A DNA stretch of 64,000 bases, from NCBI GenBank assembly GCA_000733355.1, contig JNVV01000001.1, positions 4,242,069 through 4,306,068 on the forward strand, read 5' to 3'. The translations under genes and the position numbers were made by a program. The DNA comes from Falciphora oryzae (taxonomy: Eukaryota > Ascomycota > Sordariomycetes > Magnaporthales > Magnaporthaceae). Shown here in pieces: positions 28,982-38,543 of the stretch. Numbering within the stretch: position 1 is the first letter of the stretch; each line of letters starts with the position of its first letter. The notes beneath the pieces were generated by a model that saw nothing but the letters and a program-made list of their open reading frames with translations, made no database searches and was not told the origin of the DNA.

Positions 28982-31900
28982 TCAGATAAGACGACGGAGA
29001 TCCTGCACGAGAAGTGACAAAAGTCATGTCAGCTGTGACACAAATGAGAGAACATCGATTTGGGGCCGGTTTCCTTACCTCCAGGCTGCTTAGCCCGTCG
29101 TATGCGCCTGCCTCGGCTTGCGGCGCGATCAGGAGGCCCTCGAGCTTCCTCTTCGATTGCTGCAGTTCTAGCACGCGCTGTTGTCGCCGTCATGCTTTGT
29201 GTAAGTCGGCCATCCACGCGAGAGTCGGTAGGGAGTGGTTGACTGACCTCCTCGAACGTGTCTTTCACGAAGAACCGCACTGTAGTGACTTCACTCTTCT
29301 GTCCAAGCCGATGGATTCTAGCCAGGGCTTGCTCCTCGACGGTGGGGTTCCTGGGAATGTGTTAGTTCGCTGAAGAACACCGTGAGATCCGAGGATATTA
29401 CCAGTGAGGCTCCATCAGGAACGCCGTCGATGCCTCTGTGAGTGTGAGTCTGGGAGGCAGCAGGGTTAGCAGCAAAAAAAGGGTCTTATCAATCATCGTC
29501 GCGGTTGACATAATAGGGGCATGATCAAGAGATACGCACCCAGCCGCACCGCAGGACAGTGTCAGAAGAAGCACTTTCACTCCTGTATCTTTCCTGAACC
29601 TTTTGATGACGCCGTCCCGATGTCGCTGCGCCACCTTGCCATCGAACCGCTCATATCTGATGCCAGCTCGGCCCAGTCCAGCCTGAATGAGATCCAAGGT
29701 CATTGTCCAGCTCGAGAAAACGACACTAGGACACCACCGAGTCAGTGATCAAAGAAACAGGAACGCGATGGTTGGTATCTACATCACTGATTCCGATGGA
29801 TGGGTGAAAAACTTACCTCTTCTTGTCGGTGGGGAGACCGAGCAGCTGTGATATCAGGGCAATGACCTTGCTCGAGAGCTGGCAGTTGGTCATGGCGCTA
29901 TCCTGCGTTCTTGATGGCCCGTGGTCGGACGGCCCAAAGCCGTCCTCCAGGGTCTTCCAGCCCAGAGACACCGGCGCTATATCGTGCTCCGGACTGTGCC
30001 TGCAAGTGACAGACTGATTGCGTGCGACGGCGCTCCTCGCGCAGTCCGCACACACGAAGGAGAAGCACCGGGCATAGTGCGGGCCGACAGTGGCCGAAGG
30101 GGCGCCGTCGGTGTCGTCGAAGGCGGCAGTGGTCAGGCTGGAGGACTCTCCGCAGAAGGCGCACGCCACAGGGTACATCTCGCGGCGGTGGTCGAATGCG
30201 AGCTGCGCGACGGATTTCCAGTCTCCTGTAGAAGCACCCTCCGCAATACTGTGTCTTGAGCTGTAGTTCAGCCCGAGATCGCAAACCACGCGGAGGGCGT
30301 TGATCCTCTGCAACACCGTGATGTAGGACATGGACGCCGGTCTGCCGTCTCCGCCGTCGCAGGCCTCCTCGATCCGGGCTAGGGTCTGCGCCTTGAGCTC
30401 GTCGTACAGTTTCCTTTCCTCAGGAGAAAACTCGACCGGGAGCTTAAGGTCGGTTCTCTTTGGTAGTTCGATGACGGTCTTTGGTCGCCGGAGGACTAGC
30501 CCGTTGGTCACAGTCTTTAGTCTCTTTGCGGCGTCTTCGACATTTCCTGACTTCCAGAGTCTCCCAATGTCATAGTCAAAGCGTCCCGAGTCGTCATAGG
30601 GATGGGCCCGAATGAATTTCAGAAGGCTCTCCATATCCCTGATTGAGTTCTGCACAGGTGTTCCTGTAACAGCCCATCTTGATGTAGCTTTGAGAGCGCA
30701 TACTGCCCTCGACATCCGGGATTTTGCGTTTCGGATCATGTGAGCTGTTGGGGTCAGTTCACTTTCCAGAAACAAGATCAAGGGCGAAGTAGTGTGATGT
30801 GATTTGTACCTTCGTCAAGGATGATGCGGCTCCAAGAAGCTGAGAAGAGGAAGCTTCTCTGGGTTGAATTTTGGCTGCCCCAGTCCAAAGCTACTGTGTG
30901 ATATGTCGACAGTATGATATGATGTTTTGCTGCCTCTTCGGCGCTGGTGAGTTTTTGGTCTCCATAATGGAGACCCCAGGACATTGCGCCCGGTTTGACA
31001 TGCCTTGTGTTGGGCGTCTGGGGTTAGTCGATGAAGGAGAATCCGAGGTAGAAAATTGGAGCACATGGCCAACTCACTCATCCAGCTGGTCCTGCCATGT
31101 ATCCAGCACTTTTTGAGTGGGTTATGAGGTCAGTACTTGGGATGAGGTGATAACGGAAGCCCCCGAGTCGCACGCTGGCATGGGTTTGCGGACTTACAAG
31201 GAGGCGGAACGATAATCAAGGTTGGAAGAATCTCCAACTTTGGAGCATCACTGGTATCTCGGAACATTTCGCTATGATCCGTTGCCGCCAATGCTATCAT
31301 GGTCAGTGTCTTGCCCAGTCCCATCGGATCTGCGATGATGCCGCCACAGAACTCAGGGGGTTCATCGTTATGCCATGTTTGGGATATCCGGTTCACAAAG
31401 CTAGAGGGTTACTAAAATGTTAGGTGATCCTTAAGGCAGATTGNNNNNNNNNNNNNNNNNNNNNNNNNNNNNNNNNNNNNNNNNNNNNNNNNNNNNNNNN
31501 NNNNNNNNNNNNNNNNNNNNNNNNNNNNNNNNNNNNNNNNNNNNNNNNNNNNNNNNNCGTTGCTTGTTTGTGTCAGATCCCAGAAGTCCGCCGACTCCTG
31601 TCTGAAATCCCACCCAGATTCTCGTCGCAGCAGAAACGTGAGCGCTTGTTTTTGATGCCTAGCAGACAGATGCGAAGCGTCATGTTAGTATATCAAAGCA
31701 TTGCGCATAGCTTCAAGGTATACACAACTTACATCTTGAGAAACGTCCTGAGGATGTCTTCAGGAGAATGTGATTCGGGGAGATTTTCGTGAGCGTCTGG
31801 AATCAGTTCAGGGGCATTGGGATCGGCGAATAAAATAGCTTCGGCATTGGCGCGCTCCTTTGACAGGTCAAAGACCATGGGGCAGCAGTCCAGCGAGGAT

Positions 31901-32928
31901 AATCGATGAGGGTTGCAGTACTTTACGTTGCGGTCGCAGTTTGTTGGGTCTTGGAGGTAGACATCCGCCTGCTGGAAGAAGGCGCCGACATCCTTGCTCA
32001 TGTCCGCAGGCCCGTAAATAATTAGTGAGAGGGTACATTTCTGCACTATTTCGCCAAACTGGGCCCTGTGATTGGTCTTTGACTGCAGCGTTTGGGAAGG
32101 GTTGATGGCGCAGGACATCTGCAGTTCTAATGGTGGTGCCTCAAGCATCGCCTGGACGATCTCGATATACTCGACGGCAAGCTTGCCACAGTAGGCCATC
32201 TCAGAAGATCGAGATTTGAAGGTGCAATCCGGCTCTATTGTCACGGGGAAGCCGGCCATTGGTTGAAAACTTGTCGACGGCCCCTTGCAGCTGCCAGGGA
32301 ATGAGATCTGGGGGGAGTGGTATCTTAGTACCATGGTGCAGCACTGATGCTCTGATGCGGGTGGATGTACCATTCCGTAGCAGACAGTTGTGTCTGCGAT
32401 ATCGTTGCCTTCATTGGAGAGGTCTTTTATGCCTTCTCCATGTTCGTTGGCGCTGGTTTGCACCGCCACTTCATCGGGGCCGAGGAGCGATACAGCATTG
32501 AGCTGGCCAATATCTAGGCAGTCGTCTAGACGGGCATCTAGACACGCGTCATAATCCCTCATGGAGCTTTCAGAGGCCGGGCCCCCGTGCCAGGCCCCGG
32601 TGACGCCCCAACTGGTGCAAGCCAGCCCGCCGGCGCCTCTCCAAACCGATTCGACGCTAGTTTGCACCACCCCTTCCAGAGGGAATGAGGTGGGAAACGT
32701 GGGTTGTCCATAGCCTTGCACTTGCCGGCGCGGGTTCGCGTTGGTGTGTGTTAGAGTAGGGAGCCCAAAGGCGCCCTGGGGGAGAAACGGGTTGGCCGCC
32801 CATGTGGATGGCTCGTTGCATGTAGTTGTCGTTGTTGATTCTGACCAGGTGCTCCTGAGAGGAGGCGGGGTTCTGGCGGCCTCGTCCTGGCCATACGGCC
32901 ATTCTCGCTTTCGTTGAGAGGAAGCCAT
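28982..32928 (-). CDS. SNF2-family DNA-dependent ATPase, Rad5/Rad16-like
   Basis: Minus strand. Exons read from the start: 32928-31733, 31658 into the assembly gap, 31400-31198, 31108-31078, 31003-30810, 30744-29817, 29725-29540, 29449-29402, 29350-29248, 29177-29079, 29002-28982. All visible junctions keep frame and have GT/AG borders. About 398 N-terminal residues show no known domain. The ATPase core then follows: HQKQALTFLLRRE, DPMGLGKT (motif I), DEAH (II), TGTPVQN (III). A Cys/His-rich insert (CAFC...HYARC...CADC) resembles a degenerate RING. The helicase C lobe has SVVFSSWT, LSCGAAGLTLTEAS and ARIHRLGQ. The last exon encodes only DLRRLI. Such proteins are DNA translocases in repair or chromatin work. 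The exon that enters the gap and its donor are not visible, so length and frame across the gap are uncertain. Confidence 0.82.
31444..31557. other. Assembly gap (114 N) inside the SNF2 gene
   Basis: 114 unknown bases. They hide the end of exon 2 and the donor of the following intron, whose branch point (CACCTAACA) and acceptor (CCCTCTAG) are visible just after the gap on the minus strand. The run length may be nominal. Confidence 0.98.
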
Positions 32929-33392
32929 CAGAAGGTAGAGCTGGTGCGTCGTTATATTCTCGTGCGCAGAGTTTCTTTATTTTATTTCTTCTTACTGCTG
33001 GCTGAAATATCAGACATCCGCATCGTGTCGCTCATCTCGTCAGGCGCGATGAAGACTGGATCGAGAGACGATAGCATCTAGCGGTCTGGGCTGCATCAGA
33101 CGCGGCAAATACGGATTCATTATTGGCTGCGTGTGCATGCAGCAGGAGGTGGCTGTGTCCCGGGTCGTGGCTGCCTCCAAAGACGGGCGAGGCACACTAA
33201 CATCCACACATGAAAACCGATTGGGTGAGGCCGGCTGCTCCTTGGGTTGGAGTCCGCCCAGCCAGCCTGACCTCGATTGGATCCATGTAATGGATGCCCA
33301 GCGTCGCTGTGCTGTGTCTAAAATTGCCAGGCTTGATCTTTATCCTGGCGACAGCAATTGCAACTCTCCATGCAACCCAGGCGCTGCCCTCA
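32929..33392. promoter_or_regulatory. Divergent intergenic region between SNF2 and NLR-like genes
   Basis: About 460 nt separate the two divergently oriented starts, so it must hold both promoters. TTTATTTTATTT near 32975 is the only strongly AT-rich patch. An in-frame ATG at 33294 upstream of the chosen NLR start would add 33 residues with a hydrophobic segment; I treat that as leader. Confidence 0.45.
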
Positions 33393-36300
33393 ATGCCGCC
33401 CTTTGTTCTGAGAGCTTGTGAGCCTGGCCGAATCGAAGCCAGGCTCATGATCCAGGGCGCATTCGAAGACCTACGCACATTGGTTTGGCCAGCCCATACA
33501 TCTGAATTTGCCTCGACCACCCTCCAGGATGTTCGGACAGCAGCGATTGAGGTCGAGCGGGAGCTTGCGGCGCGCCAGCTGCTTCGAAACACGCGCCGCC
33601 TGGATGCCTTATTCCGAGGATTAGAGCACTACTCCAACGTCGTAGAGACTCTTTGCCAAGGGACCGACCATCTGCCCTGGATCTGGGCCCCTGTCAAGCT
33701 CGTCTTGAAGGCAAGCCGCTCCCTCAACTATCCAAGCGTCCCAGTATCTACTGACCACAGAACCGCCCCTGCTAACTTGTTGGGGAATAGATGTCATCTG
33801 GCTGCATCGAGGCATTCGAGAGCCTGATCAAAACCTATGCGCAAATTGCTGAGCACCTGGGCAGATTCGAGCGCTTGCATCGTCCCTTCAACGACAACCC
33901 GGACTTCCACCCGACATTTGCTGCCTTCTACGTGGAAATACTCGCCTTTCACAAAATCGCCTACAAATTTGTGACACGTCGCTGTAGGTAGCAAACAGTA
34001 CACCGGGACTAATGGTACTTCCTGAAGGTGGACTGATTGTTTCCTCTGCTAGGCTGGAAGACTATGTTTGCCACATCATGGGGCCGGTCTAAGCAGAAGC
34101 TCAACAATATCCTCGAGGATCTAAGGAAACACGGGGAAATTATCGACGAGGTTTCCAGCGCGCGCATTGCCGAGGCCAGAAATATGGGACAAGAGCTGCA
34201 GTCCTGGAAAGAGGTCACTCTCCACCGGCTCATGCAAAGCGAGAAAGAGCAGAGTGAGTGCCACTTGGAAAGAATAACCTCGTGGCTTGGAATCGACGAC
34301 TCGGACCAAGCCTCTCTTCGAGACTCGCTGGTCGGGGTCGGCTTAGAGCATCCGGGCACCGCCGACTGGATCTTGAAGCACCAAGACATGGACTCCTGGA
34401 TTCAGCCAAATGCCAAGAACCCATTCTTGCTTCTGAAAGGGGGCCCGGGGACGGGTAAAAGCGTCCTCAGTGCCAGGGTAATAAGGTCCCTCCGGGATTC
34501 GGGACGTTCCATCGTGCTCAGCCATTTCTGCTCCTATTCGCCCAGCGCAACCACTCGCTACGACGTTATGGTCAAATCACTCCTACTAGGGTGCGTAAAG
34601 GCCGACCATGACCTCGCCGCTCATATATACGATGAACACGTCACTGGCAAGCAAGCGAGCATAGGCCTGCTTGAAAAACTTCTGGAGACAGCCGTCGAGG
34701 TCATTGGAGACAACGATGCGGTCCACATAATACTCGACGGCGTGGATGAGTGTCTTGCGGAGACGCAGCGCAAAATCTTCCGACTCATCGACAGGCTGGT
34801 CACCAATGGATCTGTGTGCAAGATTCTGGCGTCAGTACGAAGTTCCATGGTCGTCCCGCACGCCAAGCTGCGCAAGACGGCATCAACGGTGTCTTTATCC
34901 GAGGAGAAAGACTGTGTAGGTGAAGCCATACGACACTTCGTCACCACCGCTTTGAGGAACATGCATAGAAAGCTATCTGAGATGGGTCTGCCCGATCAAT
35001 CCGTGCCAGAGTTAGCATCCAGAATAGTTACCAAAGCCGACGGTAAGCTATAATCAGCGTGAAGCTGACTTGTAACGCGATATCTGACAGAGCAAGACGG
35101 AATTTAGGCATGTTTCTCTGGGCTCGTCTCATTCTCAACTACCTCGACGCCAACTTCTTCTACAGTAGAGCCGAGTTCACCGAGGCGATAGAGGCCATCC
35201 CGCAAGAGCTCTCCCAGTTGTGAGTGAGATTGACATTCTGAAGGGAATGGATTCTCTAAGATGCACTGTTGGAATCCTCACTAGGAAATAGTCACTAATC
35301 CTTTCCATATAGCTACGAGAAGATTTTGTCTCACGTTCTTTCACGCTGTGACTCTCGCTCGGCACATCGCCTTAAGGGCATATTCGGCTGGATAGCGTTT
35401 GCAAAGCGCCCACTCCAGATGTCGGAGCTACAGTCTGCCCTGCTATTCGACAGTCCAGGCGACGTTGCTGACCGTCCAGTGCCGAACTACGTGCTCGAGG
35501 CGTGTGGGCCTCTGGTTGAGAGGCGAAAGGATTCGACCATATGCTTCATCCATGTATCAGTCAAAGAGTACGTTTCACCCTATGGGTACGGGATATTCTA
35601 GCGAGAGCCGAATAAAGCCTTACTAACGCATATGTTGAACCCATCGTCAGATATCTCCAGAGGAACGACTGCGTCGAAGCTGTCCGCCTCTCGCGACAAA
35701 CCGTTCTATGGAACAACGGGCTCTCATCCCTGAGGTGTCTTCGGAGAGCATTTGAAGTATTCGGCCCGTCAACCCCAGAATTGACGAGAAACATCCAGGC
35801 TCTCCGAGGAGTGTGGGCATTTTTGCCTTACACGAGGGAAACGTGGTTCCGGGAGCTGCGTGAAATGGCCTCTGTACCGCAAGAGGAGTGGAACCCCTCG
35901 TTTTGGGATCTCGCTCAGCAGCTATCACAAGTCTTGGCGGCATCGCGGCCGGGCCATGCCGTACGCCAGGCCGGAGCTTCCATCCCGGGGCTCGAAGCTA
36001 TTCGATCACTTGACAGTCTCTGGTCTGAGGCCGCCGCCAGCCTGGTAGCCGAGTCTAAGGGGGAGATATTGGCAGCGGAGACAACCGATTCCGGTAAGTT
36101 CGCGTTCGCAAGGCCACACAGTACATACAATGCTAAGCGAGGGACGCAACCCTAGATTGCTCCAGACAGCCGCAGAGCATCCAGGACATTCACGCCAACT
36201 ACGAGTGGGTGATCCGGCAGCTGATCAGCATCAGCCACCACCCCGACATCAACGCGTCGGAACTCGAGCACTTTCGAGAGAACTTGACGAGAGGCGCCTA

Positions 36301-38543
36301 CGCCTGCCGCTTCCCTTCGTGTGATGCTGCTACCAACAAGTTCCGGAGCACCAGTGAGCGTGCTGCTCACGAAGCCACCCACGCACCGACTTTTCCATGT
36401 CTCGAGTCTGGCTGCCAGTACCCGCCATTCACATCTGGGAATTCGCTGCGTAAACACCAGTTGGAGATTCACGAATTCGGAGGACTCCGAAACGTCAATC
36501 GAGATCTTCTGAAGCAGGTCTGCCCAGCACCGATGCTAGATCGTGTGAAGGTCAAGGCCGTCAACGGTGTCATAAAGCTCAAGAAACAGGCTCCCCGGCA
36601 TAGTAATCCGGGTAACTGGAAAGATGGCGGTATTATTGACTGTACGCAGCCCCCTCCCCTCTCTAGCTGGACACTCTCCTCGGGACTTGTGATGGCTGAT
36701 ATGGGATCACCTCACGTAACTTGCAGCCGACTCCAAGGAGTCCAAAGCAAATTCCTTTAGCGTGACTGCGGCGTCTCCGGGCCCAATAGTCAACCTCCTA
36801 GACGACAGTGCGCACGAAACCTTTGCGACCGGCTATCCCTTTGAAGATTATATGGATATCACGCAGTGCAAGCACTGCAAAAATAGCATCCTTGCAACGG
36901 CCGCCAAAGCGCACATCGCCGACTGCTTGCGGCTTAAAAAGGAAAGGGCGCAGCGCAAAAAGGAGGCTCGGGCGGCCCGCGAGCGGGCAAAAAAGCGGAA
37001 AGCCGACGAGGACCCAAAGGACGAGCTAAAGCTTAAAGTGGCGAAACCCAAAGGCCCCGTCGATGTAGAAAGACAATGTGGTGTTATCATACATACGGGC
37101 CAACCCTGCGCGAGGTCTCTTACGTGCAAAACCCATAGCATGGGTGCTAAGCGCGCGGTCCCTGGGCGGTCACTGCCGTACGATATGCTGCTCGCGGCAT
37201 ACCAGAAGAACCAGGCGAAGCAGCAGAGTAAGTTTCCCAGCCGGCTAAGTTACGTCGGCTACATTTACAGCCGGAATCAAATTGCTAACTGGGTTACATG
37301 TTTTTGCAGAGGCGGCACTCGATGCCAACACACCCTTGGAAGACGAGGACGAGGAGACGGATACGAAAGCAGGAAACGGCTTTTAACAGCAGGAGGAGGG
37401 TACAAGTCGGCAAGAGAGGAAAAGGGAGGCTTGACCGAGACCACCCAATCATCCCGAGACGAAATCCATAACGCGGATCATAAGCCGCTCCTCGACTGGT
37501 ATCTAAGTCCGGATGGACCCTGGACAGCCGGCAAAACAGCTGGAGCGGGCCAGGCACCTGAAAAGCCGCCAGAGGAGAAGGCAATGGCGGACGTGTTCGG
37601 CCACCAACCGTCCCAAGACAGAACCGATACGGCTATTAATCCGCTCCTCGAATATTTTATGCAAAATGGGCCATGGGCGGGCTTGGGAGGCAGGGGGCTC
37701 CGGCCCCCTGATGAGCCGCCAGAGGAGAGGGAGGTGACGGACGTGTTCAGAGACCAATTATTCCGTCCCGGCCTCGCGATCGTAGCGTCGGCACCGTCGC
37801 CGGACACAACAAGCAGCCAACAAGCAGCCTCGCCAACGAATGAGCTCTTTGCGAAGAGGCTCCAGGCCGCCAACAGCCAGCACATGTCGTCCGTCACTGG
37901 TAGCATGTCGCACGACCGATCCCCTTTCAGGAACGGCACGCCGCTGGCGCAGCCCCACAGACCAACGGAGCACTCTGATGGTCCCATCGTCCAAGAGGAC
38001 AGCCGAATGCAGGTGGGACGCCGAGTCTCCAGAGATGCAGAGGAGGATTTATTGCACCAGGGCCGAGTGCAAGAGGGAAATCCAGCAGACGCGCATCTGC
38101 ATGGGGAATTGCGGCCGCAGCAGCGTCAAGGTGCAGCAACACCACCGCCAGCGGTAGAGACACGACAGCCATCTGCGCCGCTACCGCCACAATTGGAGAG
38201 GCACATAACAAACGCGTGGCGTCAGGTCTGCGCCGATCAGCCTATAGCGAGGTATGCCGATATGTCGCTTGCGCGTGACTACTTCCGGGATATGTTACCA
38301 ATCCTCGTAAAACAGAGCGGTGGGATGGGAATAAGGAGCGTAACAGATAAAATGTTGGCCGATCTTGGTATTAGAAGCGTGAGCTTGGCAGTGTTCAGCA
38401 ATCCCGACTTTTACAGGCCAAGGGGCGGCCTTGACCTCGGTAACTCAGCGAAGAAGGGAAGGCCAACTTCGGAGGACATACAGTCTTTGAAACAACAGTG
38501 GGCTTTGGGGGTGAGAAAGGTCCGAAGCTTCACTGCAAGATAA
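33393..38543 (+). CDS. NLR-like NACHT/C2H2 protein fused in frame to an Sgf73-like SAGA subunit
   Basis: Exons: 33393-33710, 33791-33983, 34053-35042, 35108-35219, 35313-35567, 35651-36093, 36156-36641, 36727-37227, then either 37310-37386 (stop; 1124 residues) or 37390-38543 (1483 residues). Order of parts: a helical N-terminal domain of the type found in fungal NLRs (about 1-185); NACHT NTPase with P-loop GGPGTGKS at about 300-307 and Walker [10 protein letters not shown] near 395; a helical/winged region; two C2H2 fingers (C821, C826, H842, H846; C852, C857, H871, H876). Then, with no stop or new start needed, come Sgf73 landmarks: IKLKK...GNWKDGG, a C-x2-C-x11-H-x3-C finger (980-999) and a SCA7 domain (C1050, C1060, C1066, H1069). 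The first intron is GC-AG; the others are GT-AG, several with clear branch points. It plausibly acts as a signal-sensing STAND NTPase carrying a chromatin-complex bait or effector; that function is inference. The Sgf73 part could be a separate transcript from ATG 36533. Confidence 0.68.
36533..37227 (+). other. Sgf73/ataxin-7-like module within the NLR-like gene
   Basis: From an internal ATG at 36533 (MLDRVKVK), through the intron 36642-36726, to the end of the SCA7 domain. Known Sgf73 anchors the H2B deubiquitinase module (with Ubp8, Sgf11 and Sus1) to SAGA: the N-terminal zinc finger sits in the deubiquitinase, and the SCA7 region is the central conserved block. Both blocks keep all their zinc ligands here, and the block [18 protein letters not shown] is nearly family-perfect, so this is not a decayed fragment. 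The lysine/arginine-rich helix after the first finger ([17 protein letters not shown]) is also retained. Confidence 0.8.
37228..37389 (+). other. Alternative splice region with one donor and two acceptors
   Basis: Donor GTAAGT at 37228. The near acceptor TTTTTGCAG (ends 37309), with branch TTGCTAACT, gives the Sgf73-typical continuation [14 protein letters not shown] and then a stop at 37384-37386. The far acceptor CTTTTAACAG (ends 37389) restores the frame of a 384-codon tail. Leaving the intron in also keeps the frame open from 36762 to 38543. No GT donor exists between 37310 and 37384 to rescue the near-acceptor form. Confidence 0.55.
37482..37757 (+). repeat. Two degenerate protein repeats in the downstream tail
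   Basis: Two roughly 40-residue units in the tail frame, at about 37482-37607 and 37635-37757. Each follows the order PLL-(D/E)-(W/Y), GPW, PPEE, (A/T)DVF. They are separated by a short acidic/polar linker. A duplicated motif in an otherwise unrecognised tail supports the idea that the tail frame has been translated. Confidence 0.55.

Follow-up and report, generated by a model that had tools for sequence, protein, structure and literature searches.

Extra domains in fungal NOD-like receptors (NLRs) have been surveyed in Sordariales, where the main text of PMC12258605 counts 185 non-canonical domains in 378 proteins, mostly in one to three NLRs. The same text presents a PKinase domain from CHK2/PRD-4 as a putative integrated decoy and reports 34 C2H2 NLRs, mostly with C-terminal zinc fingers. 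In plants, NLRs with integrated decoys join a receptor to a copy of a possible target (PMC5067614). Here we describe a predicted gene in a 64,000-nucleotide stretch of the Falciphora oryzae genome (contig JNVV01000001.1, positions 4,242,069 to 4,306,068; hereafter the window, to which positions refer unless another contig is named). It joins an NLR to a segment derived from SGF73, the gene for a subunit of the SAGA deubiquitinase module. Like the PKinase NLRs, it is a NACHT NLR to whose C-terminal region a conserved host gene has contributed an additional domain. Unlike them, it has a SAGA deubiquitinase subunit as donor with the donor introns in place, carries no detected repeat sensor, and is known from one genome rather than as an orthogroup. 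As in the fungal C2H2 NLRs, C2H2 fingers replace repeats in the sensor position, but here the Sgf73 segment stands after the fingers. The plant receptors resemble it in being joined to a copy of a possible target; it differs from them in being a fungal NACHT receptor, in having an SNF2-type gene rather than a second NLR as its neighbor, and in that an effector partner is hypothetical. Compared with Sgf73/ataxin-7, the segment has the N-terminal motif, the zinc finger and SCA7, but ∼49 residues at its start, most of the linker and the C-terminal part are missing, and it is fused to an NLR.

Putative integrated decoys in fungal NLRs have already been described, and what is new here is SGF73 as the donor. 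The original prediction, made from the DNA letters of the window, had put forward an integrated-decoy or effector NLR acting on chromatin as an arrangement not known to be described. For NACHT together with SCA7 this stands in our literature and protein searches, but both putative integrated decoys and C-terminal C2H2 fingers have been published for fungal NLRs, as the main text of PMC12258605 makes clear. No report of a NACHT and SCA7 architecture was found in the literature searched, where the one paper to name SCA7, NACHT and fungi together gives them as separate Neurospora genes. SCA7 does not appear in the main text of PMC12258605 (the supplements lay outside the search), and DUF7708, the N-terminal domain of the window protein, is not named in the literature searched.

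A predicted NLR gene and its SGF73-derived segment

Rebuilt from the sequence, the gene lies on the plus strand at 33393–37386 and has nine exons, which encode a fusion NLR of 1,124 residues in a single open frame. The splice junctions of this predicted gene were chosen by hand; the first of the eight introns is GC-AG and the seven others are GT-AG. The original prediction had traced one frame from the N-terminal domain via NACHT and the C2H2 fingers into the Sgf73 finger and SCA7, and this frame was recovered with usable splice ends at all eight introns. At the level of the sequence, the fusion of NLR and Sgf73 segment is confirmed. The domain order is DUF7708, a NACHT-type NTPase, two C2H2 fingers and the Sgf73-derived segment (residues 902 to ∼1116), which holds the N-terminal zinc finger and the SCA7 domain.

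Exon 1 (33393–33710) starts with the ATG at 33393 and is followed by the GC-AG intron, which is the same in a paralogue on contig C60. DUF7708 (residues 70–207; Pfam E 3.9e-9, 36.9 bits against a cut-off of 25) takes in exon 2 (33791–33983) and ends in exon 3 (34053–35042). The latter also encodes the NPHP3_N/NACHT region (NPHP3_N at residues 272–431, E 2.2e-29, above the cut-off), with Walker A, GGPGTGKS, at 300–307 and Walker B, IILDGVDE, at 396–403; the NACHT model PF05729 itself gives 25 bits, below its cut-off of 26.7. After exon 4 (35108–35219), exon 5 (35313–35567) encodes a GPIID_WHD-like winged helix that, at 25.7 bits, falls just below the curated Pfam cut-off of 27; this domain reaches 27.1 and 27.3 bits in two of three Gaeumannomyces orthologues. 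Exon 6 (35651–36093) precedes exon 7 (36156–36641), which contains the two C2H2 fingers (residues 821–846 and 852–876), the junction and the first SGF73-derived codons. The fingers were recognized by eye and have no Pfam match at E 0.1. They occupy the place of C-terminal WD40, ANK or TPR repeats, for which the fusion protein likewise has no Pfam match at E 0.1. Exon 8 (36727–37227) encodes the Sgf73 N-terminal zinc finger and SCA7 (residues 1034–1096, E 1.3e-28). When the N-terminal 250 residues were compared with solved structures the best E was 0.037, which we take as chance. An AlphaFold model of exon 8 (mean pLDDT, the predicted local confidence score, 65.8) was confident only for the N-terminal finger and helix (residues 41–90, blocks 84–97), with the SCA7 blocks at 55–76, and was not used as evidence.

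The segment derives from a separate host gene that is still present, and is predicted to lie in the reading frame of the receptor. SCA7 turned up twice in a family search of the assembly (two of two candidates), in the window gene and at C7:1120473, and alignment with other fungal Sgf73 proteins marks the C7 gene as the canonical SGF73. Such a gene, and a close likeness of the SCA7 part to it, were what the original prediction called for. Window 36548–36991 matches it with 92% DNA identity over 444 nt and 37017–37354 with 89% over 341 nt, and the two matches include both introns. Intron 1 (36642–36726) differs from the donor intron at 5 of 85 positions, and intron 2 (37228–37309) is 82 nt long, compared with 81 in the donor, and retains a CTAAC branch-like motif. 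Because both SGF73 introns are kept, the duplication was DNA-mediated, and the copy is best read as a partial duplication of SGF73 inserted into an NLR exon; a retrocopy origin was rejected on the same grounds. The copy starts ∼49 codons into the donor (taking the first Met in the frame of the donor exon as codon 1) and has lost a net 201 nt of the donor linker, in frame, within exon 8. The donor match stops at ∼37354, with six more matching bases to 37360 if there was a 30-nt deletion between direct repeats near 37354, as our reading of the alignment suggests. About 129 donor residues after the segment are missing, and with them the C-terminal part, which is credited with linking the module to SAGA. 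The donor continuation VDSDEETA...HEQLQMATNGGR..., the start of which is common to Colletotrichum P0001, is absent from the copy.

These comparisons also bear on the possibility that the assembly joined SGF73 reads to an NLR by error. Such an artefact is a general possibility with any assembly, and a run of 114 N lies 2 kb upstream at 31444–31557. However, the copy differs from the donor at 8–11% of sites and carries in-frame deletions, a divergence that argues against a mis-join, and contig C1, on which the window lies, is 4.49 Mb long in an assembly of 50.2 Mb and 123 contigs. We regard an artefact as extremely improbable.

The NLR part has close relatives that help to define the junction. 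A paralogue at C60:37766–40868 is 75% identical in DNA over 3.1 kb, and the match breaks off at window 36512, which is 36 bases short of the junction. It encodes 1,310 residues with no internal stop and has the same six intron positions (junctions picked by analogy). Its tail consists of a linker and, behind it, more C2H2-like fingers that are visible to the eye but not matched by Pfam, and has no SCA7. Between this paralogue and the window gene dN is 0.138 and dS 0.809 over 890 codons (replacement and synonymous divergence, respectively), and on this comparison the NLR body is under constraint. A second paralogue, on C33 (minus strand from about 4046 down), is 83% identical until window 35711, is unrelated beyond it, and looks truncated. 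With the post-NACHT and finger region as query, the three Gaeumannomyces orthologues were the only proteins with E≤0.001 among 2,849 candidates. They are 80–82% identical over residues 620–890, just ahead of the junction, and past it they carry different tails, with no SCA7 among their Pfam matches. The genome as a whole is rich in NLRs, with at least 151 NPHP3_N matches (150 of 206 candidates scored; some are pieces of one gene). DUF7708 was listed at 12 places in it, from which the window gene is missing because its domain is split over exons.

At the junction the Gaeumannomyces proteins read DRAKAKS or DQAKVKS, the window DRVKVKA, and the donor SKAKAV at the matching point, letters that would fit a join guided by microhomology. 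The left junction falls in the AAGGYCAAGGCC stretch, and the SGF73-derived part of exon 7 (36548–36641) begins at residue 902. Finger 2 ends at residue 876, as had been predicted, and 25 codons without a stop or an intron lead from it to the first Sgf73 letters. The predicted Sgf73 start near residue 897 proved to be Met 36533, ahead of the homology. This Met would be the approximate start of a short Sgf73-like gene if the locus were two adjacent genes, with the NLR ending near finger 2. A promoter within exon 7 is possible, and many public models fuse SCA7 with an unrelated domain, so that merges of this kind may be annotation artefacts. Nevertheless, Met 36533 precedes the SGF73 match and falls where the window still aligns to the Gaeumannomyces NLRs, the segment has neither the 5′ end of the donor nor its first ∼49 codons, and neither stop, intron nor non-coding gap precedes it. 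Two genes are, in our judgment, very unlikely.

A search with the Sgf73 segment, which covered 2,380 candidates of ∼618–1,967 residues, yielded 103 proteins at E≤0.001; longer or shorter proteins, and those with no five-residue words in common, could have been missed. NACHT, NPHP3_N and DUF7708 are listed in none of the 103 (precomputed Pfam domains), so that no second NACHT and SCA7 architecture, of the kind that the original prediction proposed to look for, emerged from this set. P0073 and P0074 (sources jgi and lgn) resemble the window gene in carrying SCA7 beside another domain, a ULD_2 ubiquitin-like domain, outside the usual Sgf73 layout, but have no NACHT among their Pfam matches. Many public fungal proteins fuse SCA7 with unrelated domains, recurring within genera; the partners include an SGNH esterase (Metarhizium, Trichoderma), a ketoacyl synthase (Penicillium, Aspergillus) and a capping enzyme. 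Such joins may be merged neighboring gene models.

The 3′ end of the gene and its neighborhood

The original prediction had extended the gene to 38543. The SGF73 homology ends much earlier, at ∼37354–37360 within exon 9 (37310–37386), and when the conserved last SGF73 intron is used the frame stops at the TAA at 37384–37386. This short form is our default prediction, and the CTAAC motif of its last intron lies 21 nt from the acceptor. Reading on to 38543 would need either an acceptor at 37389 or retention of intron 37228–37309. The alternative acceptor would give ∼384 further residues (37390–38543) and a long form of 1,483 residues; it has no CTRAY motif within 60 nt, and neither do 2 of 16 other introns examined. 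Intron 2 of the copy, one base longer than that of the donor, is open in the frame of exon 8, and its retention would therefore also read through to 38543.

The frame at 37392–38540 is free of stops over 383 codons, whereas the five alternative frames contain 13, 14, 7, 6 and 10; like the NLR part, it has its lowest G+C content at the second codon position. Part of it (37725–37956) is a fragment with 73% DNA identity to a C2H2 gene on contig C2; the fragment is also found in the tail of a Gaeumannomyces avenae NLR. At the protein level the likeness to the C2 gene is 64% over 83 residues, with dN 0.24 and dS 0.66 over 79 codons. A search for homologues of the extension gave none at E 0.1 among 6,945 candidates. 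Direct comparison with the G. avenae orthologue P0106 gave 55% identity over 49 residues (E 2e-10, a single-pair value), while P0105 gave no match and P0104 none at E 10, so that two of the three orthologues are without it. From its likeness to the C2 gene and to the G. avenae tail, the downstream frame has the look of an earlier tail of the NLR itself that was interrupted when the SGF73 segment was inserted. The chance that such a frame would stay free of stops if it were untranslated during 4–8% divergence is 0.10 to 0.005; either the long form is still produced or the insertion is younger than the duplication.

Head-to-head with the NLR there are minus-strand frames at 29813–30814 (SNF2-rel_dom, E 2.5e-24) and 31729–32976 (no Pfam domain), which we have taken as one putative SNF2-type ATPase gene (29813–32976). 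The N run at 31444–31557 falls inside this gene region, and the stretch 30818–32458 is co-duplicated next to the C60 paralogue.

A possible bait and the evidence for its maintenance

The in-frame join, the donor gene, the kept introns, the missing ends, the full-length paralogue and the differing tails may be taken as established from the DNA, and a bait or sensor role is what they suggest to us. We put the probability at roughly 0.5 that this is one integrated-domain NLR gene, whose variable C-terminus took up a part of the SGF73 deubiquitinase-module subunit as bait. In yeast, residues 1–104 of Sgf73 together with Ubp8, Sgf11 and Sus1 suffice for a minimal deubiquitinase module, SCA7 is reported to bind nucleosomes, and a C-terminal Sgf73 fragment connects the module to SAGA (PMC8080568). 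The copy keeps the counterparts of the module-assembly part, minus ∼49 first residues, and of SCA7, and is without the SAGA-linking part. It could therefore join the module, or pass for it, while remaining free of SAGA, as would suit a bait. We envisage that the Sgf73 segment mimics Sgf73, and that the trigger would be a disturbance of the deubiquitinase module or of chromatin, or an attacker's molecule that binds to the mimic. This would free the NACHT ATPase to oligomerize, after which the N-terminal part would set off regulated cell death or another defense output. All of these steps, from binding to cell death, are inferred.

The boundaries of the fragment are compatible with a putative role either as integrated decoy or as chromatin effector. 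In the latter case a triggered NLR would attach through its Sgf73 part to the deubiquitinase module or to nucleosomes, or would sequester or redirect these by means of it, with changes in transcription as the outcome. The segment does span regions like those to which PMC8080568 assigns module assembly and nucleosome binding, without the SAGA-linking part, and C2H2 fingers stand before it. On the other hand, typical NLRs have their output domain at the N-terminus and their sensor at the C-terminus, as stated in PMC10197012, and the Sgf73 part occupies the sensor position. A direct action on chromatin therefore seems to us rather improbable.

Returning to the bait, its main competitor is a real fusion in which the Sgf73 segment is a passenger. 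The segment would have arrived recently and by chance, breaking into or displacing the tail; it would be tolerated but bound to decay, and the NLR would work, if at all, without it. Of the 213 codons shared with the donor, 34 differ by synonymous and 17 by replacement changes (dN 0.036, dS 0.298, dN/dS 0.12). In a neutral simulation that placed all 53 changes on the copy, the expectation was ∼16 synonymous to 32 replacements, and 17 or fewer replacements occurred in 0 of 2,000 runs. Each net change in the coding length of the copy (−201, −3 and an inferred −30) is a multiple of three; among the introns, intron 2 has gained one base and intron 1 is unchanged in length. The SCA7 positions C117, C127, C133 and H136 (exon numbering) are invariant in 16 of 16 aligned sequences, the copy having kept these columns. 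All of this argues against a passenger. Conversely, tails vary among the relatives, the C33 paralogue is itself unrelated beyond 35711, and several features of the substitutions, given below, speak for a passenger. On balance we consider a passenger unlikely, though well within reach.

A number of points weigh against a maintained bait. The pairwise dN/dS of the segment includes the donor's own constraint, and if only 34 changes fell on the copy (half of the synonymous ones being on the donor branch), 17 or fewer replacements arise in 9% of neutral runs. A stop-free segment arises in 28% of neutral runs with all 53 changes and in 44% with 34, and its open frame is therefore no evidence of constraint. 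Among 11 other fungal Sgf73 proteins, which we chose from the 103 matches, the commonest residue at the 17 replaced sites is that of the donor at 12 and that of the copy at none, with neither or a tie at 5. Of the 53 coding changes, 41 are G-to-A or C-to-T. These departures and this excess suggest some relaxation in the copy. Repeat-induced point mutation was considered and rejected, as there is no classical CpA signature (14 of 107 CpA/TpG sites changed versus 22 of 118 CpT/ApG, introns included); the excess is strong and is not accounted for by this process. The divergence from the donor is also uneven, with few differences in 36550–36700 and 37100–37250 and more between these and in intron 2, a pattern that gene conversion by the donor could underlie. 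The evidence for constraint on the segment is thus moderate and suggestive, not decisive. Furthermore, the fusion transcript is predicted from sequence alone, and the insertion is known from one genome, so that neither its fixation nor its age is evidenced. As to a possible attacker, the bacterial compound phenazine-1-carboxamide acts on Gcn5 of SAGA in Fusarium (PMC6109063). SAGA is a documented target of a fungal antagonist, through Gcn5 and not Sgf73; an attack on Sgf73 in Falciphora is hypothetical. According to the same paper, no orthologue of Sus1 or Sgf11 was identified in Fusarium graminearum. The Pfam families Sgf11 and EnY2 gave no match in the present genome, where the controls were likewise silent, making this result uninformative. 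Together these last observations count against a simple transfer of the yeast picture.

More tentatively, and with the odds against it, the C-terminus of this NLR lineage may be an exchangeable bait slot that has repeatedly taken in parts of the machinery with which the fungus handles transcription and chromatin, beginning with a piece of a C2H2 regulator and continuing with the SGF73 deubiquitinase-module part. If so, the 1,483-residue form would carry both, and fungi would be watching their own gene-regulation machinery, much in the way that integrated decoys are thought to serve plants. With the donor introns still in place and the donor gene identified, the mechanism of integration, by duplication of DNA into an exon and not by retroposition, can still be read at this locus. 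If the fusion is functional, the SAGA deubiquitinase module would become a concrete candidate "guardee" of a fungal NLR, and the question of what such a receptor senses would become testable.

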